Shown: one piece after another, positions 1,941 to 44,323 of the stretch
How positions within the stretch are numbered: position 1 is the first letter of the stretch
Layout: each line of letters starts with the position of its first letter
IMG/VR virus record: IMGVR_UViG_3300048800_000097
Span: 1-44,498 of that record
Source: a virus
DNA length: 44,498 bases
Strand: one strand, 5' to 3'
Translations under genes and position numbers: made by a program
The notes under the pieces: generated by a model
What the model saw: the letters and a program-made list of their open reading frames with translations, nothing else
Databases searched by the model: none
What the model was told of the DNA's origin: nothing

Positions 1941-2491
1941 GCCGGCACCTCGGGCGCGGCCTTCTTGCTCCGGCTGCCCATGGCCTGCAGGTCCTTGTCC
2001 GGCTTGCCGTTGGGATCGCCGTTGCGCTCGATCGTCACCGTGGTGCCCTTGCCGAACAGCGGCAGTTGGGCGGCTTCGGCGAAGGCCTGGAGGTCGGGCT
2101 TCCACAAGCCTCGCCGCAGCACCACGTCGTTGAACTCCTCGAGGTCGTGGGGCGCCAAGTAGGGGACCTCGTCCCCGTCCTCGGTGGTCTTGACCTGGAA
2201 GTGGCAGAGCTCGTGGTCGACAAGCGCCTCTCGCTGGGCGTTGGCCAGCGCCTCCCAGGCGTCGTCTGCCAGTTCGAGGACGAAGAACGTATCGCCCGCC
2301 TCCCGGGCCAGGTAGGAGTTCAGCCCAGTGACGGTGCGGGCCTTGCCGAGGACGGTCTTGCCCTTAGTCCGGGCCGCGACATCGCGGAAGACGACCTCCA
2401 GTTTCCAGCCGTCGAGGTGCTTATGGTGCTCTCGCTGGACCTTCTGGACGAGTTCCAGGACCGGCTCGGGGGCGGCGTGGTAGGTGGTCAT
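1937..2491 (-). CDS. putative phage metallopeptidase (HExxH-like)
   Basis: A 184-aa protein with a good AGGAGG ribosome site before ATG 2491. The central motif VDHELCHF is an HExxH zinc-protease signature with upstream helix WEALANAQREAL, and a downstream PHDLEEFNDVV. This pattern matches the putative phage metallopeptidase family found in early regions of actinophages. The C-terminus is lysine-rich. The substrate is unknown. Confidence 0.75.
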   Translation of the reverse strand: MTTYHAAPEPVLELVQKVQREHHKHLDGWKLEVVFRDVAARTKGKTVLGKARTVTGLNSYLAREAGDTFFVLELADDAWEALANAQREALVDHELCHFQVKTTEDGDEVPYLAPHDLEEFNDVVLRRGLWKPDLQAFAEAAQLPLFGKGTTVTIERNGDPNGKPDKDLQAMGSRSKKAAPEVPA

Positions 2492-3267
2492 GCGTTAGTT
2501 CCTCCTGTTGCTGCAGCGTCCTTTCGCCGCAGACGGTAAGCGCGCTGATTCAGCCGCGCATGGGTTCGGGTGCAGGTTCGGCAACGTCGGGCGCCTGCTG
2601 AGTCGATCAGGGTGTTGCCCTCGTCATAACGGTGGCCGTTGACGCAAGCAGCGACTGGCACGTAAAGCACGCCAGAGCGGCTCGCCCCGCGCCGCACGTT
2701 CTCCGCGATGGTCACCGGCTCCATGTGGTCTGGATTTCCACAAGCCCGGTTTCGGCAGATGTGGTCTAGGGGTTGGCCGGGATCTCCGTGCCGCAGCGCG
2801 TACATGAACCGGTGAACCTTGATAGGCCAGCTGCCTCGACGTCCGCCGAAGGTCGCGTAGCCGTCAGGATTCAGTCCACCGACCCACGTCCAGCAGCCAT
2901 CGTCTGAGACTTCGAATCCGAGGCGGCGGGTTCCAGCCGGCCAAGGCATGTCGACGTGGCGCCCGCCATTTTCGAGGTCGTTGTACTGCGGATGCTCGGT
3001 TTGGATGGCCCGGCGCTCATCCGCGATCGCCGCCTGGCGAGTCACGTAGTGCTCGAAGTCACACGTCGCCACATCCAACCACCACGGCTGCTCATAACTG
3101 TGCTGCCGGAAGCGAAGCGGGCCGAGCAGGGTGATGCCGATGTAGAGCAGAGCGCCGGCACGGTCGTAGAACCTGTAGAGCGTGGTCGGCCTCACGTTAT
3201 TACCGGCCAGGACCGAGACGCGGTCTGGTGAGACCTGGGGGCCGTTGCAAGCACCCCTTCCACACAC
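2488..3267 (-). CDS. GIY-YIG + HNH fusion endonuclease
   Basis: A 259-aa frame combining two nuclease domains. Residues about 27-95 read TTLYRFYDRAG-LLYIGIT...RFRQH...WW, a GIY-YIG core. Residues about 122-195 read CWTWVGGLNPDGYATFGG...KVHRFMYALRHG...LDHICRNRACGNPDHMEP, an HNH_3-type nuclease. A zinc-ribbon-like tail follows (ACVNGHRYDEGNT...CRTCTRTH), as in the HNH genes at 7190 and 33841. GTG 3267 gives the longest frame, but GTG 3195 (MRPTTLYRF) starts just at the domain and is equally possible. No strong ribosome site supports either. It is likely a freestanding homing-type or DNA-processing nuclease. Confidence 0.75.
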   Translation of the reverse strand: MCGRGACNGPQVSPDRVSVLAGNNVRPTTLYRFYDRAGALLYIGITLLGPLRFRQHSYEQPWWLDVATCDFEHYVTRQAAIADERRAIQTEHPQYNDLENGGRHVDMPWPAGTRRLGFEVSDDGCWTWVGGLNPDGYATFGGRRGSWPIKVHRFMYALRHGDPGQPLDHICRNRACGNPDHMEPVTIAENVRRGASRSGVLYVPVAACVNGHRYDEGNTLIDSAGARRCRTCTRTHARLNQRAYRLRRKDAAATGGTNA

Positions 3268-8591: not shown

Positions 8592-9566
8592 ATGGAATCC
8601 ACCATTCCGACGCGCGAAGAGGTCCGGACCGCCGCCCAGGGCTGGCTCAAGTGGCTGATGTACGAGCGCAGGGCCAAGCCCACCACCGTGAAGTGCTGGC
8701 GCTCAGCGATCACCTGCTGGCTCAACCTGCTGCCGGAGTACCCAGACCACGATGAGTTCTACGCCGCTCTGGACGCCCGGCTGCCCAGCGACCGCAAGGC
8801 CGTCCGGGGCAAGACCTGGGACGCTCTGCGCTCCTTCTACGGCTGGTGGGAGCCTCGAGGCGGGCCGCCCTTCCCGCTGCGGGACATGCCGCCGCCCAAG
8901 CAGAGCCGGACCCGGCGCCAGCCGCTCTCGGAGGAGGAGCTGGAGCTCATCCTGGTCCGCATCCAGGGCGCCGACGTCAAGGCCCGGGCGATGATCTTCA
9001 CCCTGCTGCTGGCCGGCGCCCGGCCCTCAGACGTGGTCGGCATGTGGCGCGAGGACGTCGACCTCACGCCCGGCCGCGAGCGGATCCGCTTCCGCGATCG
9101 CAAGTCGGACGGCTCCGATGAGTGGCACTCGATGTCGCCCACCCTGGCCGACGCGATCACGCTCTACCTCGATCGCTTCTCCATCCCGGCCGGCTACCTG
9201 TTCCCGGGGCGCCACGGCCGCATGACCCCAGAGGCCGTCCGGATGGCCTGGTATCGCCACATCGGGCAGGGCGAGGCCGGGATGCCGTCTCAGGCCCGCC
9301 GGTGGTTTGCCGTCAGCCTCAAGCGCAGCGGCACCGACGTCGACACCATCCGGCAGTTCCTTGGTCACGCCGACCTGCACACCACCCAGATCTACCTCAA
9401 CTCCGATCTCGCTGAGGGCCGCCGCGGCGTGGTCGACCTCGGCGACTATCTCAGCCGCAAGGAGGCCAAGCTGGCCTCGCCTCAGGAGGTGCCCAATGTC
9501 AAGCCGATCCCTCTTCGCCGGCCTCACGCTGGCCCTGCTCGTCCTGGTCGCCACGGGGTGCGGTGA
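8592..9566 (+). CDS. int: tyrosine recombinase integrase
   Basis: A 324-aa protein with a SAM-like N-terminal DNA-binding domain (GWLKWLMYERRAKPTTVKCW) and a catalytic domain. Box I arginine is in LLLAGARPSDVVGM, a lysine in RDRKSDGSDEWH, box II in PSQARRWFAVSLKRSG, and FLGHADLHTTQIYLN gives GH...Y with the tyrosine. The HxxR histidine seems replaced by Ser (PSQAR), which is unusual. It follows the repressor by 50 bp and overlaps the lipoprotein gene by about 70 bp. It marks the phage as temperate. Confidence 0.9.
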   Translation: MESTIPTREEVRTAAQGWLKWLMYERRAKPTTVKCWRSAITCWLNLLPEYPDHDEFYAALDARLPSDRKAVRGKTWDALRSFYGWWEPRGGPPFPLRDMPPPKQSRTRRQPLSEEELELILVRIQGADVKARAMIFTLLLAGARPSDVVGMWREDVDLTPGRERIRFRDRKSDGSDEWHSMSPTLADAITLYLDRFSIPAGYLFPGRHGRMTPEAVRMAWYRHIGQGEAGMPSQARRWFAVSLKRSGTDVDTIRQFLGHADLHTTQIYLNSDLAEGRRGVVDLGDYLSRKEAKLASPQEVPNVKPIPLRRPHAGPARPGRHGVR

Positions 9567-10866: not shown

Positions 10867-11081
10867 GGCCGGCGCCTCGGGCGGCCCAGGGGGAGGACGG
10901 CAGCGCAGTTGGCGCAGGCCGAGTCCTCGAACGGGTTCACCAGCTGGGCCTCAGCCAGCGGGGTCACGATCAGCGCGTCGAGGTGGACGCCGCAGCGCGC
11001 CCGGTAGGCCCCAAAGCCCCGCGGGTCGTCGAGCAGGTGGACGACGGTGCCGCTCTTGGTCCGACCGTAGGCGGCGCTCAC
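10863..11081 (-). CDS. hypothetical small zinc-binding protein
   Basis: A 72-aa protein from GTG 11081 (MSAAYGRTKSGTVVHLL), overlapping the endonuclease gene stop by GTGA. RCGVHLDA and CANCAAV provide three or four metal ligands. Small proteins with this VHLL...C.....CxxC pattern are frequent in actinophages. Function unknown. Confidence 0.55.
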   Translation of the reverse strand: MSAAYGRTKSGTVVHLLDDPRGFGAYRARCGVHLDALIVTPLAEAQLVNPFEDSACANCAAVLPLGRPRRRP

Positions 11082-11686
11082 GGCTGCACCACAGCGAGCC
11101 GCGCTGGCGCTTCGAGGTAGGAGATGAGGGCTCTCAGGACGGCGGGGTTGTCCTGTGCCATGCCGAGCACCGTGTTGCAATTGCGGCACAGTAGCCCTCG
11201 TATTTCGCCGGTCGAATGGTTATGGTCGACGCTTGTCGCGGCACGCCCACAACCCCCGGCGCAGCGGCCATCCTGGGCCGCAAGTAGAGCGACGTGCTCG
11301 GCTTGGGTCAGGTTGTATTTCCGCAGCCGTTTGCGGGCCGCGACCTTCTCTGGGTTGGCGATGACCCAGGCCCGGTATCGCGCCGCCTTCGCCGCCATCT
11401 TCTCTGGATTGGCCTCGCGATAGGCGCGATACCGCGCCGCAGCCTCCTCTGGGTTGGCCAAGCGATAGGCCCGCCTCTTCGCCGCATTGGCCGCGTAATA
11501 GGCGCGATCCCGGGCCGCCATCTTCTTCGGATTGGCCAAGCGATAGGCGCGCATCCCCGCCGCAATCTTCTCCGGGTGGGCGGCCCGATAGGCCCGTCGG
11601 TGCGCTGCGGTCTTCTCTGGATCGCGACTCCCACGACTAAACCGCCCGCCGCCCGGGAGGCCCGGAAGGGCAAGTTGGCCGGTCAT
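11078..11686 (-). CDS. endonuclease VII-like HNH nuclease with ANPEK repeats
   Basis: A 202-aa protein. The C-terminal domain reads CAGGCGRAATSVDHNHSTGEIRG then LLCRNCNTVLGMAQDN, the recombination endonuclease VII signature with zinc cysteines and DHxH. The first 110 residues consist of five to six imperfect repeats of about 13-16 residues containing AYR-ANPEK-AA, probably a long basic helix that grips DNA. The repeat is also visible in the DNA (11330-11630). The gene has its own promoter (P3) and follows the lysis genes. A relative lies at 20863. Confidence 0.85.
   Translation of the reverse strand: MTGQLALPGLPGGGRFSRGSRDPEKTAAHRRAYRAAHPEKIAAGMRAYRLANPKKMAARDRAYYAANAAKRRAYRLANPEEAAARYRAYREANPEKMAAKAARYRAWVIANPEKVAARKRLRKYNLTQAEHVALLAAQDGRCAGGCGRAATSVDHNHSTGEIRGLLCRNCNTVLGMAQDNPAVLRALISYLEAPARLAVVQP
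11330..11630 (-). repeat. imperfect tandem repeat coding for ANPEK units
   Basis: Tandem units of roughly 40-55 bp, each with a variant of TTCTCTGGGTTGG and GCGATAGGC on the plus strand. They encode the repeated N-terminal helix of the endonuclease VII-like protein. Confidence 0.6.
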
Positions 11687-15422: not shown

Positions 15423-16448
15423 TCAGCCCAGGAAATGAACCGAGAGCCAGCCGGTGAATCCGATCGCGCCGCCGGGCGAGATCCCCATCACGTTGATCGT
15501 CTGCCCAGCCGTGACTTGTATGTGGGTCGAACCTGTCAGCCCACTGTTCGCCGCTAGGTTGACTACATCTTGCAGGTTATGGACGCTCGACCCATTGATC
15601 CCAACGGCGAGCCTAATTTGCCCGCCACCGGAGGCGCTGACAATTTCGAGACCAGCGCTGACGTGCCAAATCCCGGTGTAGGGAACGGTGAAGCCGTTGC
15701 TCACACCCATCGCAAAGGGGTCGAGGTCACTGGTGTCCAAGGCGATGATGGTTAGTAAGTTGCCAATGGACGTTGTCGCAACCCCATGTCGACGTCCCGC
15801 GATCTTGCCGGCGGCGCCCACGATCTTCCAGGTCCCCGGCGTCCCCGCCGCGGTGCAGGTCCACAGGATGCCGTTGAGGTCGAAGACGTACTGGCCGACG
15901 ACGAAGGCCCCGGTGGTCGGGGGCCCCGCCGTGGCCTGCTGCCCGGCGTAGCGATCCGGGGCGGAGCCCTTGGCGCGGAGGTCGGTGATGTTGCCGGCCA
16001 CGATCGAGGACGCATTGGCATTGACCTGCACCCTGGCCAGCACCAGCGAGTCGGCGGGGGTCGCCGGGTCCACGGGACTGCCGGCAGGCGTCCCGGTGAC
16101 AACCACCAGCGCGGCGTCATCGTTGGCCCCGCTGTAAGCGGTGTCGCGGATGCGGGCCACAACCAGGTCGTGGCGCGGGTTGGTGACGTCGGCGGCGGCG
16201 ACGACCAGGTTGACCACGGCATCGTTCAGGAAGTAGTACGAGCCCTGGAAGGTCGCCTCAGTCCCAGCAATGAACGCGCTGCCCGCAGCGACGTCCACGC
16301 TCATATTCGGGGTGCCGTGGGCCGCGACCAGCAGGTCGGCGAAGTTGCTGATCCCCGCTTGGCCCGCCAGCGCGGCCATCATCTGACGCACCCGCTCTGC
16401 AGGGTGGCTGCCAGCCTGGACGAATATCGGCGGAGTTCTTACTGTCAT
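15423..16448 (-). CDS. minor tail / baseplate fibre-like protein
   Basis: A 341-aa protein from ATG 16448 (MTVRTPPIFVQAGSHPAERV) with an AGGAGG nine bases before it. The segment GSAFIAGTEATFQGSYYFLN ... NPRHDLVVARIRDTAYSGA is typical of phage tail-tip or receptor-binding proteins. The C-terminal half looks like a C1q/TNF-like beta domain (FTVPYTGIWHVSAGLEI, GWLSVHFLG). Likely host-recognition component. Confidence 0.75.
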   Translation of the reverse strand: MTVRTPPIFVQAGSHPAERVRQMMAALAGQAGISNFADLLVAAHGTPNMSVDVAAGSAFIAGTEATFQGSYYFLNDAVVNLVVAAADVTNPRHDLVVARIRDTAYSGANDDAALVVVTGTPAGSPVDPATPADSLVLARVQVNANASSIVAGNITDLRAKGSAPDRYAGQQATAGPPTTGAFVVGQYVFDLNGILWTCTAAGTPGTWKIVGAAGKIAGRRHGVATTSIGNLLTIIALDTSDLDPFAMGVSNGFTVPYTGIWHVSAGLEIVSASGGGQIRLAVGINGSSVHNLQDVVNLAANSGLTGSTHIQVTAGQTINVMGISPGGAIGFTGWLSVHFLG

Positions 16449-20438: not shown

Positions 20439-20866
20439 CCGCCGAGGCTCCACTGGCCGGTGGGCTTGAGCGTGCAGTCAGCCACCAGTGCGCCGGTGAC
20501 TGGGCCCATCATCTTGAAGCCCACCACGTAGGCCGAGAACTGGACGTACTTGGTGCTGGTCTTCAGGAAGAACCTGAAGTTGCGCAGCGTCCGGTTGTTC
20601 TGGTCGGCCATCATGCCGGTGTTGTTGTCGTGTGTGGGGTCGAGCACGTTGAGGTTGATGGGGAAGGTCACGTCGTCGGTCCGGATGATGGTGGGGACGA
20701 TCTCCTCAACGCCACCCGGGCTGGACTGGTTGGTGACGTCGTGGGTGTCAGTCTTCTGCCCAGGGCCGGCGATGGCGCCAACCTCGCCGATGGTGGTGAA
20801 GGCCTCTGGCGCGCCTCCATCGCCCTTACTCATTAAAAAGCCCGGCCCAGTTTTCGCCCAGCTCAC
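20435..20866 (-). CDS. major tail tube protein
   Basis: A 143-aa protein from GTG 20866 (MSWAKTGPGFLMSKGDGGAP), directly upstream of the tail chaperones. It is beta-rich (TFPINLNVLDPTHDNNTG, KYVQFSAYVVGFKMMGPVTG) and its size suits a siphovirus tail tube subunit. Assignment is mainly by position and general pattern. Confidence 0.7.
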   Translation of the reverse strand: MSWAKTGPGFLMSKGDGGAPEAFTTIGEVGAIAGPGQKTDTHDVTNQSSPGGVEEIVPTIIRTDDVTFPINLNVLDPTHDNNTGMMADQNNRTLRNFRFFLKTSTKYVQFSAYVVGFKMMGPVTGALVADCTLKPTGQWSLGG

Positions 20867-21348
20867 AGTAGATCCTCCTGGACCAGGGCCAGTTGCGGCC
20901 GGAAGTCCTCGATGTACCGGACCGCAGCGAGGAGCAGGTCAGGGCGCTCCCTCAGAAGCCCAATGCCGGTGTTGCAGTTGAAGCAGAGCAGCCCGCGAAC
21001 GGGGAGCCCGGGGACGTGGGCGTGATCGACGGCGAGCGCCTTGATGTTGCCGCTGGGGAGCATCTTGGTCTCGGGCTCCCGGCAGATCGCGCACACGCCG
21101 TCCTGGGCGTCCAGCATGCGCTGGTACTCCTGAACGCTGAGCCCGAACTTCACCCTGAGCCGGTATTCCTTGGCTGCGGTTTGCCGCTCCTCCTTGTGCG
21201 CATCACGCCAAGCCTTCTGCTCGGCACGATGGGCAGCCGCGTAGGCCCTGCGCTTGGCCAGGTATGCGGGAGTGCGCTCAGCCTCCCGCTGCCGAGGGCG
21301 GTATCCCCTGCGGTTGGCGATCCTGGCAGCGGGATCTTTGTACGGCAT
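20863..21348 (-). CDS. endonuclease VII-like HNH nuclease
   Basis: A 161-aa protein starting at ATG 21348 (MPYKDPAARIANRRGYRPRQ); the longer frame is a shadow. A basic helical N-terminus (RAYAAAHRAEQKAWRDAHKE) precedes CAICREPETKM, VDHAHVPGLPVRG and LLCFNCNTGIGLLRERPDLL, the endonuclease VII signature. It sits between structural genes, coupled by overlaps on both sides, which suggests insertion of a mobile nuclease into the tail module. Confidence 0.85.
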   Translation of the reverse strand: MPYKDPAARIANRRGYRPRQREAERTPAYLAKRRAYAAAHRAEQKAWRDAHKEERQTAAKEYRLRVKFGLSVQEYQRMLDAQDGVCAICREPETKMLPSGNIKALAVDHAHVPGLPVRGLLCFNCNTGIGLLRERPDLLLAAVRYIEDFRPQLALVQEDLL

Positions 21349-21731
21349 CAGCTCAGGGCCGGCAGTCTGACGATGCAGAACCAGACGGTGGCTGCGGAGC
21401 CCTGCAGGTGGACGGTGCCATCCGCCTGAGCCCACCCGGCGAGTGGCAGAGGACCGTGGACGGCGAACTGCGGGGTGACGCTGCCGATCGGCAGGCTGTA
21501 GGCCGTGACGTCGCCGGTGCGCGCGGTGGGGTCCGCCACGCTGTTGATTGTCACAGTGCCAGGAGCGGCCCCGGTATTCATGACCAAGATCAGCTCGCGC
21601 CCGGTGGACACGAAGCTGTTGCCGTTGGCGACGTCGGCGGGGGTGAAAACCAGCGCGGCTGAGAGCGCGGTCAGCGGGGTGGCGAAGACGCGCCCCGGCG
21701 GGGTGGTGATGGGAAGGGCTGTGATGGCCAC
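21348..21731 (-). CDS. hypothetical beta-rich structural protein
   Basis: A 127-aa protein from ATG 21731 (MAITALPITTPPGRVFATPL). The pattern GNSFVSTGRELILVMNTGAA...GTVTINS resembles a small immunoglobulin-like phage protein often encoded near capsid or neck genes. It could be a decoration or neck protein. Its position is just before the tail tube. Confidence 0.6.
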   Translation of the reverse strand: MAITALPITTPPGRVFATPLTALSAALVFTPADVANGNSFVSTGRELILVMNTGAAPGTVTINSVADPTARTGDVTAYSLPIGSVTPQFAVHGPLPLAGWAQADGTVHLQGSAATVWFCIVRLPALS

Positions 21732-22061
21732 TTACTTGCCTCCTGGGTGGGCGCTGCGCCGGTGAACGCGGACCGCCTGGCTGCCGCCCTGGATGTCCAG
21801 GAAGGCGATGTGGCAGTCGGGGCACTTGTGATTCGGGTGGCCATTCCACGCACCGGAGAGAAACTCGTCATCGCCCTCTTGGGCCGCGACCGCCTCCTGC
21901 TGGGGCGCGTCCTCGGGGTTGCTGGCGGCGGCGGCGCGGCGGGAGCTCTTGGCGTCGGCCTCGCGCTGGGCCTTGGTCTCGTCGGACTCCTCAGGAGCGT
22001 CGACGACAGAGCCGGACCGCTCGGTCAATTCGACAGGCTCGCTGCCCACAATCTCGCTCAT
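21732..22061 (-). CDS. C2H2-like zinc-finger protein with acidic N-terminus
   Basis: A 109-aa protein. Residues 1-70 are acidic and disordered. The C-terminus reads KCPDCHIAFLDIQGGSQAVR followed by VHRRSAH, a CxxC...HxxxxH finger. AGGAGG precedes ATG 22061. A short gap of 65 bp before it carries dyad site 7. Function unknown. Confidence 0.6.
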   Translation of the reverse strand: MSEIVGSEPVELTERSGSVVDAPEESDETKAQREADAKSSRRAAAASNPEDAPQQEAVAAQEGDDEFLSGAWNGHPNHKCPDCHIAFLDIQGGSQAVRVHRRSAHPGGK

Positions 22062-37562: not shown

Positions 37563-37757
37563 TCAGACCTCGCCTTCGTGCCAAGCCCCGCACGTCATGC
37601 AGTGCAGCTTAGGCTTGTCCAGCACGGTTCCCGCGTCGGGGTCGACATAAGCGAGGCCCCAGAAGTGCATCCTTCCGAAGCGGCATCGGGAACGATGTTT
37701 ACCGCACTCGCAAGTGACTGGACCGCTGCCCGGCAGCCCTCGGCGCCCCGCCTTCAT
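37563..37757 (-). CDS. small zinc-binding protein
   Basis: A 64-aa protein (MKAGRRGLPGSGPVTCECGK) with CECGKHRSRC and LHCMTCGAWH. ATGA-coupled to the HTH gene and 6 bp before the GNAT gene. Function unknown. Confidence 0.6.
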   Translation of the reverse strand: MKAGRRGLPGSGPVTCECGKHRSRCRFGRMHFWGLAYVDPDAGTVLDKPKLHCMTCGAWHEGEV

Positions 37758-38215
37758 GCCGCCGCCCAGAAGGTGGCCACGTCGGCTTCGGTGTAGAGCA
37801 GCTGGCGGCCAAACAGGGTCCCGCCAATGCGCCCGGTGGCGTAAAGCTGGCGCACGCGGTCCGGGGTCAGGCCCAGGCGCTGGGCCGTCATGGCGCTGGT
37901 CAACCAGGTCCCGGCCTCAACCAGGTCCCGGCTATGGATGTCAACGCGGCCAACGATTTCAACGTCGCGGCCCTGGGCCTCGTCGTCCTCGGGGCCCCAC
38001 GGGGCGGCGTAGTAGGTGTTCTCAAGGGCGGCGGTGCAGCGGGAGCAGTGCTCCTCAAAGAGCACGTCGCCAAGGTCGGCGGTGATCCAGTTGCCGCCGG
38101 TCCGCTGGCCACACAGAGTCCGGGTCTGGTCAGGGGTCATCCGGTGGCACTTCATTAGGCCATCGTCGCGGCTGGGCCAGGTCAGCGGGCTCCGGGTGTT
38201 GGCACTAGCGGTCAT
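37754..38215 (-). CDS. Zn-finger plus HTH_17 (excisionase-like) protein
   Basis: A 153-aa protein from ATG 38215, 7 nt after the P6 -10 box (probably leaderless). N-terminal Cys/His cluster (CHRMTPDQTRTLC, HCSRC). C-terminal HTH: TAQRLGLTPDRVRQLYATGR then LLYTEADVATFW. It is related to the HTH proteins at 10207 and 38782, here fused to a metal-binding domain. Probably a regulator. Confidence 0.65.
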   Translation of the reverse strand: MTASANTRSPLTWPSRDDGLMKCHRMTPDQTRTLCGQRTGGNWITADLGDVLFEEHCSRCTAALENTYYAAPWGPEDDEAQGRDVEIVGRVDIHSRDLVEAGTWLTSAMTAQRLGLTPDRVRQLYATGRIGGTLFGRQLLYTEADVATFWAAA

Positions 38216-38217
38216 GT

Positions 38218-38577
38218 CTAGAATACTAGCGCATCCGTTAGCGAATAGCAAGTCGTGGGCCCTCTATTTTGGGCGTCCGCGGACCCCGGATTCGGCCGGC
38301 ACCCAGGCGTTGGAATAACGCGCTCCGTCCAGCCCTTGTGGTCGTAGGGCCGGCGGTTGACGTCGACCTCGGTGTGGCCCTCAGCGGCCAGCGCCTCGAC
38401 GGTGCCGTGGCCGGCGAGGATCACGTTGTCGGCGGCGATCACCACGGTCCGGTACTGGCCGCCGTGCTCGCGGATTGACTCGCGCAGGGCCTCGAGGTCG
38501 TGGCGCTTCGGGTTGCCCGGGAAGGGCTTGAGGTCAGCGATCTTGACGCGCTCAGTAACGAGGGCAGCGGCGGTCAC
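38218..38577 (-). CDS. ParB-like (ParB/Srx fold) protein
   Basis: A 119-aa protein from GTG 38577. VKIADLKPFPGNPKRHDLEA, LRESIREHGGQYRTVVI and VILAGHGTVEALAAEG are the ParB N-terminal domain signature with a GHG...EA loop. It lacks the central HTH of partition ParB. Standalone phage ParB/Srx domains are often nucleases or modification partners. Its 3' end contains promoter P6. Confidence 0.8.
   Translation of the reverse strand: MTAAALVTERVKIADLKPFPGNPKRHDLEALRESIREHGGQYRTVVIAADNVILAGHGTVEALAAEGHTEVDVNRRPYDHKGWTERVIPTPGCRPNPGSADAQNRGPTTCYSLTDALVF
38223..38251 (-). promoter_or_regulatory. promoter P6
   Basis: Minus strand TTGCTA (38251-38246), 17-bp spacer, TAGTAT (38228-38223), then 7 nt to ATG 38215. 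It lies within the end of the ParB-like gene. Confidence 0.65.
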
Positions 38578-38781: not shown

Positions 38782-38970
38782 TTACTTGGCTGGCTTCGGC
38801 CCACGCCGGGCCGCGGGCCGGGCCTCGAGGCGGGCCAGGTCGCGCTCAGAGATCAGGCGGGTCCCGCCTACCTTGCGGGAGCGGAGCTCACCCGATGCCA
38901 GCAGCTGACGGATGCGCCCGGGGGTAACCCCCAGGCGCTCCGCGGCCTCGGCGCTGGTCATCTCTCTCAT
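38782..38970 (-). CDS. excisionase-like HTH_17 protein
   Basis: A 62-aa protein: TSAEAAERLGVTPGRIRQLL then ASGELRSRKVGGTRLISERDLARLE. It is almost a single winged HTH and is closely similar to the protein at 10207. Candidate excisionase or small repressor. Confidence 0.75.
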   Translation of the reverse strand: MREMTSAEAAERLGVTPGRIRQLLASGELRSRKVGGTRLISERDLARLEARPAARRGPKPAK

Positions 38971-39681: not shown

Positions 39682-39939
39682 TCAGTCCCAATACGGGGTG
39701 GCGCGGACGGTGGTCGTGCCGCTGGTGGCGCGCTGGGTGTCGGTGGCGAACGCGCTGGGCCGAGGCGGCTCTGGTTCCGGCTCGGTGTAGTCGCAGCACC
39801 AGACTTGCCCGCACTCGCAGCGCCAGATCGCGCCTGCCTCAAACCGCTGCCCCTTCCACCACCTGGCGGGCTGCTGGGGCACCTCGCAGACGTGGGGCGC
39901 TGGGCATTCGAGGCCGGTCCGCAGGAACGTTCCGCTCAC
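39682..39939 (-). CDS. small zinc-ribbon protein
   Basis: An 85-aa protein from GTG 39939 (MSGTFLRTGLECPAPHVCEV). WRCECGQVWCCDYTEPEPEP gives a CxC...CC site. A degenerate copy of the start repeat lies just before it, followed by a short frame ending in TGA overlapping this GTG. Confidence 0.55.
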   Translation of the reverse strand: MSGTFLRTGLECPAPHVCEVPQQPARWWKGQRFEAGAIWRCECGQVWCCDYTEPEPEPPRPSAFATDTQRATSGTTTVRATPYWD

Positions 39940-39953
39940 GGCTTCCCCTCCCC

Positions 39954-39978
39954 GCCTGGGACGCGGGGTGACTGCCGG
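39954..39978 (-). repeat. start-spanning repeat, degenerate copy R1
   Basis: Contains the conserved CTGGGACGCGGGGTGACTG (plus strand) but has lost the CAGTCAT half with the start codon. It is probably a relic. Confidence 0.6.
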
Positions 39979-39981
39979 GAG

Positions 39982-40401
39982 CTAGGTTCGGTCAAGTCGG
40001 TCACGTAGGGAGTCCTCCACAAGATTCGGGATGTCCTTGACCCCGGCGACGTTGAGAAGCGGCAGGGCCCAGAGGTCGCGGCGATTACGTTGCATCCGGT
40101 GGGTGTGGTTGTCGAGGAAGGCAACTCGGAGCGGGTGGTAGGCGCCTTCGGGGTTGATCGGCTTCAGGAATCGCGGGATACGCAGCCTTACCTTGTCGCG
40201 CCTGCCGCAGATCGCACAGACCAACTCCATCCGGCTGACTCCCCGCAGGGCAGCCTCCCGACTGTCACTGAGGTAGAAGTAGCAAATCCACGGCTTGCCC
40301 ACCTCGTACTTCGGCTCGGTTGGGAACGGCTGGACGATATCCCGCAGCCAGTAGCCGAAACGCTGCCGCAGGGCTGGGAGGCGGGGTGACTGCTCAGCCA
40401 T
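39982..40401 (-). CDS. hypothetical protein with repeat-coded start
   Basis: A 139-aa protein. The start is placed at ATG 40401 because the repeat-encoded sequence MAEQSPRLPA begins there, and the ATG shares a base with the upstream TGA. Contains MELVCAICGRRDKVRLRIPR (CxxC) and NHTHRMQRNRRDLW. Function unknown. Confidence 0.6.
   Translation of the reverse strand: MAEQSPRLPALRQRFGYWLRDIVQPFPTEPKYEVGKPWICYFYLSDSREAALRGVSRMELVCAICGRRDKVRLRIPRFLKPINPEGAYHPLRVAFLDNHTHRMQRNRRDLWALPLLNVAGVKDIPNLVEDSLRDRLDRT
40372..40401 (-). repeat. start-spanning repeat copy R2
   Basis: 30 bp ending on the ATG of the gene at 40401; palindrome with one mismatch (TGACTGCTCAGCCA). Confidence 0.75.
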
Positions 40402-40622
40402 CATCGGGGCCAGATAATGCGGGAGCATTTCTCGCAGGTGACGGTGCCCTCGTCCTCGACCATCCGCCAGTGAAGCGCGCGCTGGCCGCAGACCGGCTGA
40501 CCGTGGCCGTTCTCAGCATGGCTGGTCGTCCCGCCTCTCCCGGGTTTGTCGAACGCCTCCGCAAACAGAATCGCGCCTATGCTGCTCCGCTGGGCTGGGA
40601 CGCGGGGTGACTGCTCAGTCAT
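40401..40622 (-). CDS. hypothetical protein with repeat-coded start
   Basis: A 73-aa protein beginning MTEQSPRVPAQRSSIGAILF. The C-terminal part VTCEKCSRIIWPR has a CxxC. Apart from the first ten residues it shares nothing with its neighbours. Confidence 0.55.
   Translation of the reverse strand: MTEQSPRVPAQRSSIGAILFAEAFDKPGRGGTTSHAENGHGQPVCGQRALHWRMVEDEGTVTCEKCSRIIWPR
40593..40622 (-). repeat. start-spanning repeat copy R3
   Basis: 30 bp, full palindrome TGACTGCTCAGTCA over the start codon. Confidence 0.8.
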
Positions 40623-40830
40623 CGATCCGCTCGATACTCGATCCGTGCCCCGGTGTGAGCGGGATCAGCTTCTGGCCCGACCGGACCAAAACCGTGCCAC
40701 CCTCGATGCGCTCGACGTATCCCTGCCGGTAGCGCGAGGAGCCGTTGAGGATCAGGCCGCCTACTGTGAGCCGCACATAGTCTCCCGGCTGTAGCCCTTC
40801 GGCTGGGACGCGGGGTGACTGAGCAGTCAC
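40615..40830 (-). CDS. hypothetical protein with repeat-coded start
   Basis: A 71-aa protein from GTG 40830 (MTAQSPRVPAEGLQPGDYVR). The rest reads LTVGGLILNGSSRYRQGYVE, a small beta-barrel-like domain (KOW/SH3-like). GTGA overlap with the upstream gene. Confidence 0.55.
   Translation of the reverse strand: MTAQSPRVPAEGLQPGDYVRLTVGGLILNGSSRYRQGYVERIEGGTVLVRSGQKLIPLTPGHGSSIERIDD
40801..40830 (-). repeat. start-spanning repeat copy R4 (central bases flipped)
   Basis: 30 bp; the palindrome reads TGACTGAGCAGTCA on the plus strand, AG in the centre where the other copies have CT. Confidence 0.8.
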
Positions 40831-41120
40831 AGCGGCACGTCCATTGCTTCGGGCCAGTCCATGAGGGCTGCCGACTCGTCGTAATCCCAATCGCGGACTG
40901 AACTCTCGAGGTCTTGGATGACGCGGCTGGCTCGCTTAGCCCACACCAACACGCCCTCCAGTTCCTTGATGCGCTGGTCGCGGGACTCCAACTGAGCCTT
41001 GAGGTCGCGGATGGTAGCGGCTGCAATCCGATACGCCTCCTCGGTTGGACCTCCATAGGGCCGGTTTCGGCTCACCGTGTACGGCTTCCCGGCTGGGACG
41101 CGGGGTGACTGCTCAGTCAT
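40827..41120 (-). CDS. hypothetical protein with repeat-coded start
   Basis: A 97-aa protein beginning MTEQSPRVPAGKPYTVSRNR, mainly coiled coil (AYRIAAATIRDLKAQLESRD, RIKELEGVLVWAKRASRVIQ). The segment ESRDQRIKE recurs in the protein at 41481. Confidence 0.6.
   Translation of the reverse strand: MTEQSPRVPAGKPYTVSRNRPYGGPTEEAYRIAAATIRDLKAQLESRDQRIKELEGVLVWAKRASRVIQDLESSVRDWDYDESAALMDWPEAMDVPL
41091..41120 (-). repeat. start-spanning repeat copy R5
   Basis: 30 bp, full palindrome, identical to R3. Confidence 0.8.
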
Positions 41121-41404
41121 TTCAGGCCCTCAATAGGAGCATCAAGCGCGGCATCAAATCGCCTGAGCAGCGGACTCATGGTGATCTCGTCAACGGCGCC
41201 GTGATCCGGACAAATTGCCACACAGCCGCGCGCCTCACGGGCTACTTCCGCGAGTCGGATAGTGTAGGCCAGCAAGGCCGGGGCGCGCGCCGCAATCCGA
41301 GCACCGCTCGGTGTCAATATCATGGCCCGCGCCGTCGCCGCTTCCTCTGGCGTGGCCCATACCCCGCCCTCTCGCAACTTCCGCAGAAAGTCGAGGGTGC
41401 TCAT
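41117..41404 (-). CDS. hypothetical protein
   Basis: A 95-aa protein from ATG 41404 (MSTLDFLRKLREGGVWATPE), overlapping the stop of a 27-aa frame (ATGA). Helical, with CVAICPDHG. It lacks the start repeat. Confidence 0.55.
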   Translation of the reverse strand: MSTLDFLRKLREGGVWATPEEAATARAMILTPSGARIAARAPALLAYTIRLAEVAREARGCVAICPDHGAVDEITMSPLLRRFDAALDAPIEGLK

Positions 41405-41484
41405 AGCCACCAATTGCTGCCCGGATTCCAATGCTCGCCAGTGACGAATCCCAGCAGGTATCGGTAGAAGTTTCGGATGCTCAT
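41401..41484 (-). CDS. 27-aa coupled peptide
   Basis: MSIRNFYRYLLGFVTGEHWN, from ATG 41484 (ATGA with the upstream stop) to TGA 41401 (ATGA with the next start). The double coupling exactly bridges an otherwise empty gap, suggesting a real, if tiny, gene. Confidence 0.45.
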   Translation of the reverse strand: MSIRNFYRYLLGFVTGEHWNPGSNWWL

Positions 41485-41774
41485 CTCTCCTCCCGCTCCT
41501 CTCGGTTCAGGTAGGTATCCACGTCCATCGCCAACCGCAGCAGGGCTTGAGGGTTGTCAAGGTCGGCGGCGTTGAGTCGGTACAGCAGGGCCTCGGCTTC
41601 CTTGATGCGCTGGTCGCGGGACTCAGCAGCGGCCTTGTAGCCAGCGCGGAAGCTCCGATGGTCGTGTGCCAAGTCCACCTGCCCCGGTCGGCACCATGCA
41701 TCCTCGGCCCGTATCGTTTCTTGCTGAAGGTCGCTCAGTCCCTCGGCTAGGACGCGGGGTGACTGCTCAGTCAC
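41481..41774 (-). CDS. hypothetical protein with repeat-coded start
   Basis: A 97-aa protein from GTG 41774 (MTEQSPRVLAEGLSDLQQET). AAESRDQRIKEAEALLYRLN is coiled coil and similar to the one at 40827. An AGAGGAGA site precedes the start. Confidence 0.6.
   Translation of the reverse strand: MTEQSPRVLAEGLSDLQQETIRAEDAWCRPGQVDLAHDHRSFRAGYKAAAESRDQRIKEAEALLYRLNAADLDNPQALLRLAMDVDTYLNREEREER
41745..41774 (-). repeat. start-spanning repeat copy R6
   Basis: 30 bp, full palindrome, one change (GGCTAGGACG) and GTG instead of ATG. Confidence 0.8.
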
Positions 41775-41992
41775 GGGCTCTCCTCTTGCCGGGATGCCGC
41801 CGCCGTGAGCTTTTCGACGTGAGCATGAGCCGCCCGTAGAGCGGTCGCGGCAACGGCGCAGTTGTGGAGCGCCGCCACGTTGTCCAGTTCAGCTTGGCGC
41901 AACTCCCGGCCCGCCTCCATCCACTCGCTCATCCAGTCGGTTGTTGCTGACTCGCTCATCGTGGCTGGGACGCGGGGTGACTGCTCAGGCAT
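41771..41992 (-). CDS. hypothetical protein with repeat-coded start
   Basis: A 73-aa protein. Start at ATG 41992 (MPEQSPRVPATMSESATTDW) is set by the repeat. Helical (MEAGRELRQAELDNVAALHN). Confidence 0.55.
   Translation of the reverse strand: MPEQSPRVPATMSESATTDWMSEWMEAGRELRQAELDNVAALHNCAVAATALRAAHAHVEKLTAAASRQEESP
41963..41992 (-). repeat. start-spanning repeat copy R7
   Basis: 30 bp, one mismatch in the palindrome (TGACTGCTCAGGCA). Confidence 0.75.
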
Positions 41993-42212
41993 CGACGGCC
42001 ACGAAATGATCCGATCCGAACCGGGAGTAGTCCCGCTCATCGCAGCGCACATATCCCTTGCGTTCCAGCGCGTTGATAGTTCGTCCATATCGCATGTAAC
42101 GGTGGACGTATAGACCCCCCTCGTTGATGATTTCGTCCAGCAATAGGCGCTGTGCCACTGTCAGTGGCTTCCTCATCTCCTGTTGGGGGTTCACGGTTGG
42201 CTCCTCAGCCAT
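41985..42212 (-). CDS. hypothetical winged-helix-like small protein
   Basis: A 75-aa protein (MAEEPTVNPQQEMRKPLTVA) with LLLDEIINEGGLYVHRYMRY then INALERKGYVRCDERDY, which looks like a winged-helix domain (cf. helicase-like small regulators). No start repeat. Confidence 0.5.
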   Translation of the reverse strand: MAEEPTVNPQQEMRKPLTVAQRLLLDEIINEGGLYVHRYMRYGRTINALERKGYVRCDERDYSRFGSDHFVAVDA

Positions 42213-42384: not shown

Positions 42385-42560
42385 GGCTGCCGCTCCAGGA
42401 GGAGCAACAGAGCAGCCGTCCAGGAGGCGATCGTCAGGAGCAGCCAGAGGGCCGAGTCCAGGGCCGCGATCGGCACCGCCATCAGGCCGGCGGCGATCAG
42501 CAGCACGGCGCCCATCTTGCTCTCCGGGCGGCGAGGCGGCAGCGGCCTTATGGGAGCCAT
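42381..42560 (-). CDS. small two-segment membrane protein
   Basis: A 59-aa gene: MAPIRPLPPRRPESKMGAVL then LLIAAGLMAVPIAAL and ALWLLLTIASWTAALLLLL. GGAGG before ATG 42560. It overlaps the HerA-like gene end by 13 bp and the next gene by GTGA. Function unknown. Confidence 0.55.
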   Translation of the reverse strand: MAPIRPLPPRRPESKMGAVLLIAAGLMAVPIAALDSALWLLLTIASWTAALLLLLERQP

Positions 42561-44323
42561 AGCGCCTCCGTGCCGACGACACGGCCGGGGCCGGCGTAAT
42601 CCACCAGCCCGAGCGTTCGCAGCGAGCTGACCACGTTGGCAAAGTGGCCGCCGCCGGCGTTCATCCCGCTTCGATCAGCGAGCTCTTCGCGGCTTAGGTT
42701 CTCAGGGTAGGTGGCGATGACGACCTCGACGACCTTGCGCTGAGAGCCTGTGAGCTGGCGCAGCAGCATGTCCTGGAGGGCCTCGCTGTCGAGGGGCGCA
42801 TCAGGCGCCTGGGCGATCGCGCGGCCAGCATCAGCCAGGGCCAGCATTCCCGGGCCCATGTAGTCGATGGCGCCGGCGGTGCGCAGGCTGCTGACGACGT
42901 TGGCGTAGTGTCCGCCGGTGTGCTTGATGCCGGCGACCATGCCGACCTGGGGGCGGCTGGCAGGCGAGATCCCAACGGCCTCCAACCAGGCCAGGGCGTC
43001 GAGGATCTTCTGCTGGCTGCCGGAAGGACTGAAGGAACCATTTTGGTGGGGCTGCGCGGCAGGTGCCGCCGCGACAGCTGTCTGTCGCGTATTCGGGATG
43101 GGCCTTGGCACCGCCCGGTTTGATGCCGTTGGATTTGGTTTACGGTTCTGGGCACGCGCGTAGGGCACGGCTTGCGCGCCCAGAATGCGAGCCGCGATGG
43201 CGGTGCCCTCGTCGACCATGCCCTCGACCTGCTGCATGATCGGTGCAATAAGACGGGCCGCCTCGAGGACGCCCTGAGCGAAGGTGCGGAGCTTGGTCCA
43301 ATCCTCCTCGGTGACAGTCGAGACCTCGACGACCTTCTCGACCTCAATCGTCTGTGGCTCGGCATTAACACGAATCGTGTTAATGGTTTTCTCGAGCTCA
43401 GCGATACGCCGCCGGAGCTCGCGCGGGTCGTCAGCCTTGGCCTTCTCGATGGTGGCCGCCATCTGCTTCTGCAGGGCCGCGATGTCGACCTCCGCGAGTC
43501 GCGCTGGCGGCCGCGCCTTCACGCCAACCTTGGGCGTCGCGCCAGAGTCGTAGGTGCGCCGCCGGCGGAAGCGGATCCTCATGAGTGTCCCGAGCCAATG
43601 GGGGCTGAACACCCACGCCTCGCCGCTGTCGAGCTCGGGCAGCTCGTCGACCAGCTGGGCCCCGAGCGCATTCTGTTGCACCCAGGCGAGGATGGCCTTG
43701 CGGTCCTGGGGCGACGTCGTGCGCATCGCGAAGAGCGTCTGAATTTGGGTGAGGACGTCCTTGTTGAGTGACGCCGAGCGCTGGGTGATGAGGGTGATCC
43801 CGATGCCGCGGAAGCCTCCACGCTTCACCAGCTGCTCAAAGGCCCCGACCATCCTGGCGACGTCGCCACGCACCATCTGCGGGATGTACTCGTCGGCCTC
43901 CTCGCAGAAGACGTGCAGCGGTTCGCGGTTGCGCTTGTAGAGCCGATCGGCGAAGTCAGTCAGGAAGCGCCTCTGGTCCGCCTTGGACATCTCCGAGACG
44001 TCGAGCACGCAGGTGAGGCGCTGGTCGACCACCAGGTCGGCGACGAGGTGGCCACCGGTTGCCTCGAGCGGCACGTCGCCGTGCAGACCGCCGAGCACCA
44101 GGATCGGCAGACCTGGCCCGGCGCCGTCAGCCGAGGACCTGATGCCCCACCAGTCGCCTTTCGGGTCGATCGCCACCCAGGGCAGCCCGGCGTCGAACAT
44201 CTCCTCGGCCATCACGACGGCGGCGTTGGACTTGCCGGCGCGCTTGACCGCGAGGATCCCAAAGGTCTCGGTGACCGCCTCGAGCGACAGCGCCAGGTCG
44301 GGAGAGACGCGCAGCTCGGTCAC
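42548..44323 (-). CDS. HerA/DUF87-like ATPase with duplicated C-terminal domain
   Basis: A 591-aa protein from GTG 44323 (GTGA overlap). The P-loop is an unusual GILAVKRAGKSN (about residues 22-33), Lys-Arg in place of the usual Thr-Gly. WVAIDPKGDWWG, then Walker B LHVFCEEADEYIP (about 137) and ITLITQRSASLNKDVLTQ fit HerA/DUF87 helicase-like ATPases. After a coiled coil (about 290-335) come two related winged-helix repeats (GGHYANVVSSLRTAGAIDYM and GGHFANVVSSLRTLGLVDYA). It may act in DNA translocation or defence. Confidence 0.8.
   Translation of the reverse strand: MTELRVSPDLALSLEAVTETFGILAVKRAGKSNAAVVMAEEMFDAGLPWVAIDPKGDWWGIRSSADGAGPGLPILVLGGLHGDVPLEATGGHLVADLVVDQRLTCVLDVSEMSKADQRRFLTDFADRLYKRNREPLHVFCEEADEYIPQMVRGDVARMVGAFEQLVKRGGFRGIGITLITQRSASLNKDVLTQIQTLFAMRTTSPQDRKAILAWVQQNALGAQLVDELPELDSGEAWVFSPHWLGTLMRIRFRRRRTYDSGATPKVGVKARPPARLAEVDIAALQKQMAATIEKAKADDPRELRRRIAELEKTINTIRVNAEPQTIEVEKVVEVSTVTEEDWTKLRTFAQGVLEAARLIAPIMQQVEGMVDEGTAIAARILGAQAVPYARAQNRKPNPTASNRAVPRPIPNTRQTAVAAAPAAQPHQNGSFSPSGSQQKILDALAWLEAVGISPASRPQVGMVAGIKHTGGHYANVVSSLRTAGAIDYMGPGMLALADAGRAIAQAPDAPLDSEALQDMLLRQLTGSQRKVVEVVIATYPENLSREELADRSGMNAGGGHFANVVSSLRTLGLVDYAGPGRVVGTEALWLP

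Follow-up and report, generated by a model that had tools for sequence, protein, structure and literature searches.

Small genes enter and leave phage genomes rapidly, but the joints involved can seldom be seen. The locus described here raises the question of why a series of small phage genes begins with nearly the same 30 nucleotides and then continues with bodies that have little in common. The window, i.e., the whole stretch of DNA that was analysed, is one 44,498-bp record of an uncultured virus, and the genes of the array region lie on its minus strand. The 30-mer ATGACTGAGCAGTCACCCCGCGTCCCAGCC, hereafter called the leader, is found there in six minus-strand copies that are 26-30/30 identical, the variants carrying one to three changes. 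Copy R7 (ATGCCTGAGCAGTCACCCCGCGTCCCAGCC; starting at 41992 and running down to 41963) opens a 73-aa gene (41771-41992) with a second in-frame ATG 33 nt inside, and contains, at leader bases 6-8, the TGA stop of the preceding 75-aa gene (41985-42212), whose product has a predicted structure of low confidence. R6 (GTGACTGAGCAGTCACCCCGCGTCCTAGCC; 41774 to 41745; upstream stop TGA at bases 2-4) opens a 97-aa gene (41481-41774), which is followed by two leaderless genes, one of 27 aa (41401-41484) with a strong Shine-Dalgarno (SD) sequence and one of 95 aa (41117-41404) that terminates in leader R5. R5 itself has the consensus sequence (41120 to 41091; upstream stop TGA at bases 2-4) and starts another 97-aa gene (40827-41120), and R4 (GTGACTGCTCAGTCACCCCGCGTCCCAGCC; 40830 to 40801; upstream stop TGA at bases 2-4) starts a gene of 71 aa (40615-40830). 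R3, again the consensus and identical to R5 (40622 to 40593; upstream stop TGA at bases 6-8), starts a 73-aa gene (40401-40622), and R2 (ATGGCTGAGCAGTCACCCCGCCTCCCAGCC; 40401 to 40372) a gene of 139 aa (39982-40401). The six copies of the preliminary description were thus recovered, while its statement that they head consecutive small genes fails at the two leaderless genes between R6 and R5. A relic, R1, had likewise been placed at a start codon; it keeps only a 20-nt core, GCAGTCACCCCGCGTCCCAG (39956-39975, minus strand), has lost the start codon and is intergenic, lying between the TAG stop of the R2 gene and the GTG at 39939 of a leaderless 85-aa gene (39682-39939), which has a strong SD sequence of its own and with which R1 is out of frame. 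We propose that R1 may be the scar of an array member that was lost or degraded.

The array is closed and its unit is well delimited. A PWM built from the six copies scores them at 43-49 bits and R1 at 19.5 bits; the runner-up sites reach 6.4 bits on the minus strand and 8.3 bits on the plus strand, the latter being R4's own dyad in reverse. Since the score falls to 6.4 bits after R1, there is no further leader copy in the genome. When every possible ORF start in the window was scanned, the six leaders formed the sole group alike at 24/30 positions or more. A candidate eighth copy at 42212 (82% identity to R2 over 28 nt) had no PWM score and was taken as chance, and a likeness downstream of R1 and R5 (GGGAAGCCGT) was insignificant when compared with shuffles. 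The boundaries of the leader unit are sharp on both sides: the upstream flanks show no significant similarity, the downstream flanks none except for R6/R7, which is marginal (P 0.0025 before correction for 21 pairs), and the 45 nt past the leaders are alike at 9-12/45 positions among the pairs listed, i.e., near random. SD-like purines directly follow 5/7 copies, against a background of 26-30% (P of about 0.02, binomial estimate). All exact repeats of at least 22 nt in the window are leader pairs, bar one 27-nt repeat in the same array, an identical block in the bodies of R5 (40962-40988) and R6 (41598-41624) that encodes ESRDQRIKE and is the genome's longest repeat after the leader. The earlier claim that most of the proteins are unrelated past the repeat agrees with the near-random 45 nt that follow it, although R5 and R6 are, through this block, not entirely unrelated. 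Since the bodies are unrelated, whole-gene duplication does not explain the near-identical leaders.

The position of the unit relative to gene boundaries suggests how it could work. The upstream gene's stop, which the preliminary description had placed within the repeat in several cases, lies inside the leader at 5/6 junctions; at R2 the end of the upstream gene overlaps the start codon (TGATG). With the start codon taken as frame 1, the 30-bp unit carries a TGA in frame 2 (bases 2-4) and/or in frame 3 (bases 6-8). R4 lacks the TGA at bases 6-8, and its upstream gene stops at bases 2-4; R7 and R2 lack the TGA at bases 2-4, and their upstream genes stop at bases 6-8 or end earlier. The leader variants therefore keep whichever stop the upstream gene uses, so that the unit works as a stop plus a restart. 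The SD pairing upstream of the starts is uneven (in kcal/mol: R6 -9.0, R4 -6.3, R5 -6.1, R3 -3.2, R7 -3.1, R2 -1.5) and is weak at three of the six (R7, R3, and R2), which would fit coupling via the overlap rather than independent initiation. Through translational coupling, ribosomes that terminate here would initiate again at the start codon in the overlap, and any open frame joined in frame behind base 30 would thereby be expressed. In our best reading, the 30-bp unit would be a stop-restart junction translated as codons 1-10 of each gene.

Shared N-termini may also arise from annotation, and what is preserved in the leader may be either its DNA or its peptide. Codon usage, trained on ten other phage genes, places the coding frame of the body in the leader frame in 6/6 genes; for an untranslated leader with free spacing, the chance of such agreement is about 0.0014, so that a mis-called start is unlikely and the leader most likely represents codons 1-10 of its genes. 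In Glutamicibacter phage Montesquieu (OV696619, L077), the N-termini of genes 37, 43, and 50 are alike through a repeated promoter/RBS leader upstream of the ATG: the annotated starts (27034, 31469, 34513) lie inside this leader, with an ATG coming after it, and give false shared N-termini. Were our repeat likewise untranslated and placed ahead of the true starts, one would expect starts past the leader. Indeed, in-frame starts follow shortly after it in R7 and R5, at which these two genes could also begin, and R1 is followed by a genuine start. However, R2, R3, R4, and R6 have no plausible ATG/GTG/TTG shortly past the leader, and the upstream genes end at the leader start and not past the leader, which together with the frame agreement makes such an artefact the least probable of the explanations considered here. 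Also very unlikely, in our view, is that codons 1-10 act as a shared N-terminal signal for addressing or processing, comparable to the T4 internal proteins' capsid targeting sequence, although a common N-terminus on unrelated bodies is the pattern of those proteins (PMC3012670), the QSPR motif is invariant and occurs in no clear non-array gene, and in a single-sequence AF2 model of the R4 protein, a small beta barrel, the leader part is of low confidence and lies outside the predicted barrel. Start codons aside, the six full copies differ by five internal changes (R7 base 4; R2 bases 4 and 22; R6 base 26; R4 bases 8-9, taken as one), all of which are replacements and none silent, the third codon positions being invariant except within R4's two-base change. 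As 81 single changes are possible in the leader, 23 of them silent, the count of 0/5 silent has a P of 0.19 if the changes are neutral and of 0.004 under peptide selection at an omega of 0.2. Hence, the peptide is not obviously what is preserved, and R1 retains its DNA core in an intergenic, out-of-frame position without a gene. The comparison of silent with replacement changes thereby agrees with the earlier claim that conservation is at the DNA level. Moreover, R4 and R6 both go on with EGL, in three codons that differ silently while the leader shows no silent change; this contrast hints at DNA-level upkeep, although it concerns three codons only and was noticed after the fact.

The preliminary description had suggested a translation or regulatory element located downstream of the start codon, and the unit does begin at that codon. 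A downstream-box-type enhancer acts through complementarity to 16S rRNA after the start codon. Against one actinobacterial 16S sequence, which may not be the host's, the longest exact antisense match of the leader is 7 nt compared with a shuffle mean of 7.6, and the duplex energy is equalled by 11/150 shuffles; the 30-mer contains no SD motif, and as RNA the copies do not form a start-site hairpin consistently and show no compensatory changes. Given neither 16S pairing nor a conserved hairpin, a downstream-box element and an RNA hairpin are unsupported, and the suggestion of a translation element gained no positive support. It is possible, if on the doubtful side, that the leader is a regulatory site and only incidentally coding, at which a protein or RNA would bind the dyad unit and control the operon, as has been proposed for the stoperator-like or dyad repeats of actinophages. 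The left half of the leader is a dyad, TGACTG-NN-CAGTCA, with 6-bp arms that are perfect in 4/6 copies and carry one mismatch in R2 and R7; it is kept in R4 (40801-40830) through a change of AG to CT at its exact centre, equal to an inversion of the dyad core, and dyads with 2-bp spacers are found near starts in cluster EG phages (PMC7302621). The single orientation of all copies, the noncoding core kept in R1, the EGL codons of R4 and R6 (with the limits given above), and the small DNA-binding-like genes close by, such as those at 38782-38970 and 41985-42212, would also suit a binding site. On the other hand, it is the left dyad arm that varies (R7 and R2) and that is absent from R1, the hairpin is not conserved, the genome holds no copy elsewhere, and no cognate regulator was identified. 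A ParB-like N-terminal fragment and two small excisionase/BldC-like proteins are encoded just downstream of the array (38218-38577, 38782-38970, 37754-38206) and are possible binders of the repeat.

A search for the repeat in related phage genomes, together with the gene content between its copies, had been proposed as a check, and the leader proved absent from every relative searched, in collections that may lack the records closest to the window. In IMG/VR, the exact leader gave three single-copy matches without repeats, judged to be chance, and the codon-degenerate leader gave no match. In GTDB (84,980 prokaryote genomes), a leader-like pattern matched 30 times against about 120 matches expected by chance, each as a single copy, except for a self-overlapping site in L032. 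The body proteins found nothing convincing in Pfam and PHROGs, no match by tblastn in 50,697 phage records, and none in IMG/VR pattern searches, which detect close relatives only. Relatives were sought through HerA, terminase, and capsid. The HerA gene (42548-44323) shows up to about 55% identity to its relatives; in the 68 HerA neighbourhoods (819 kb), neither a body homologue nor the leader core was seen, nor any array of at least three shared starts, and six relatives plus seven named phage records agreed with this, apart from ordinary promoter/RBS repeats, paralogues, and low-complexity matches. The product of the HerA gene is a HerA/FtsK-like ATPase whose C-terminus carries two similar winged-helix-like domains, and this family is represented at 68 IMG/VR loci, yet in one named phage record only (MW202482). 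The HerA region of L146 (6650-7900) carries an exact internal tandem duplication with a period of 629 bp, or else an assembly artefact, and L013 has a 27-bp tandem repeat of about 20 units (15756-16371) downstream of a HerA relative. In LuckyBarnes (NC_047851, L075), a repeated promoter-like motif, AGTGAGTTATAGTTATTACATCA, precedes at least three small genes (31934, 36620, 43002) by about 50 nt.

Taken together, the most likely explanation, which we rank first and hold tentatively, with DNA-level regulation second, is that the stop-restart junction has been copied between genes by short-homology recombination, by which leader copies may have spread, become uniform, or allowed bodies to be swapped. 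In simulated exchanges between the six leaders, the upstream protein and the downstream frame were both kept in 30/30 ordered exchanges, compared with 1/3 of random body-to-body joins. Exchange would be harmless because neither neighbour is damaged by a crossover at any point of the conserved right part; any shared start sequence would give such in-frame safety, which is hence no proof that exchange happens or is selected. That short segments are copied here is indicated by the 27-nt repeat common to two bodies of the array. As a possible background for short-homology recombination, we note two features of the phage's gene set: an ATPase that weakly matches Sak4-like annealing proteins (PHROG 124, E 2e-7), and an endonuclease VII domain (E 1e-21). 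In cluster O phages, gene gain and loss have been explained by recombination between junction repeats (PMC4351075), and in T4, microhomologies of 6-10 bp flank the genes that are amplified and deleted (PMC9391042). The anatomy of the junctions thus agrees with a recombination joint, a reading that is unproven, as no relative with the leader or the bodies was found. The strong identity of the leaders could simply reflect recent copying, and aberrant replication may have put a functionless leader on neighbouring starts too recently for the copies to diverge. This would account for the confinement of the leader to 2 kb, its absence from all relatives searched, and the other 27-nt copy in the same array; we consider it rather improbable, since all seven copies lie at gene junctions, six of them in the right frame. 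The preliminary description had set against its own proposal the absence of the repeat from every relative combined with simple local duplication: the former was found in the relatives searched, the latter was not, as the leaders are near-identical on unrelated bodies. Somewhat more plausible than functionless copying, and still unlikely, is a dedicated in-frame gene-capture joint, offering stops in two frames and, in the remaining one, a start and ten codons, at which small accessory genes would be added, dropped, or swapped by recombination with their neighbours unbroken and which gene conversion would keep uniform. Genes of the HNH/endonuclease VII type (2488-3267, 11078-11686, 20863-21849) are scattered among the phage genes and are candidates for free-standing homing endonucleases.

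An element that ends one gene and is also translated as the beginning of the following gene would illustrate the fusion of unrelated frames to an existing expression signal, and would provide a tangible path to gene capture and gene birth. It also carries a warning for annotation, as shared N-termini need not imply shared ancestry.

Several known systems resemble the array in part. Cluster A stoperators are asymmetric repressor-bound sites that occur throughout the genome in the direction of transcription; the leader is like them in its single orientation and unlike them in forming one 2-kb array. Integron attC arrays are built on GTTRRRY/RYYYAAC core sites. Like integron cassettes, the small genes of the array stand head-to-tail and are separated by a common short sequence, but the leader lies inside the gene start, and the 30-mer contains no GTT or AAC and hence no such core; no integron integrase was identified in the phage, only a distant tyrosine recombinase at 8592-9566. 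The Start-Associated Sequences (SASs) of cluster K, also known from cluster EF, are 13-bp motifs of the GGGATAGGAGCCC type with AGGAG (PMC3203893, PMC7302621); in cluster K they include the SD core and are placed 3-7 bp ahead of the start (PMC3203893), and they mostly precede genes with intergenic gaps of more than 50 bp (PMC3203893, PMC7302621). Like SASs, the leader is a short conserved DNA repeat at the starts of unrelated non-structural genes, in a single orientation and sometimes with the upstream stop inside the repeat. Unlike them, it opens with the start codon itself, is translated, lacks an AGGAG-like core, and joins overlapping genes. The leader array is therefore not a member of the cluster K/EF SASs, and the difference from cluster K that the preliminary description had drawn is upheld.

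Cluster O phages (Corndog) carry more than 30 copies of 17-bp dyad repeats genome-wide, mostly intergenic or within ORFs (PMC4351075), and cluster EG phages carry 18-bp dyads 14-22 bp upstream of starts (PMC7302621). The leader resembles both in containing a dyad and in lying near gene junctions; it differs in being confined to 39956-41992 and fused in frame as codons 1-10. A repeat of the cluster O/EG kind would have perfect inverted arms around a short spacer in nearly all copies; in the leader, the arms are perfect in 4/6 copies and have one mismatch in R2 and R7, and R1 lacks the left arm. In the internal proteins of T4, a conserved N-terminal peptide, the capsid targeting sequence, directs proteins into the head (PMC3012670). 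As a case of unrelated small proteins with a common N-terminal sequence, these are the best parallel for that trait, but the T4 tag is defined by the function of its peptide, whereas the leader is preserved as DNA, with a substitution pattern that goes against peptide conservation. We consider the array real and unusual, as seen in one genome so far and with its mechanism inferred, and it differs from the known phage repeats at junctions and starts by its placement. In logic, it stands closest to the Corndog (cluster O) repeats and to the internal-protein tag of T4.
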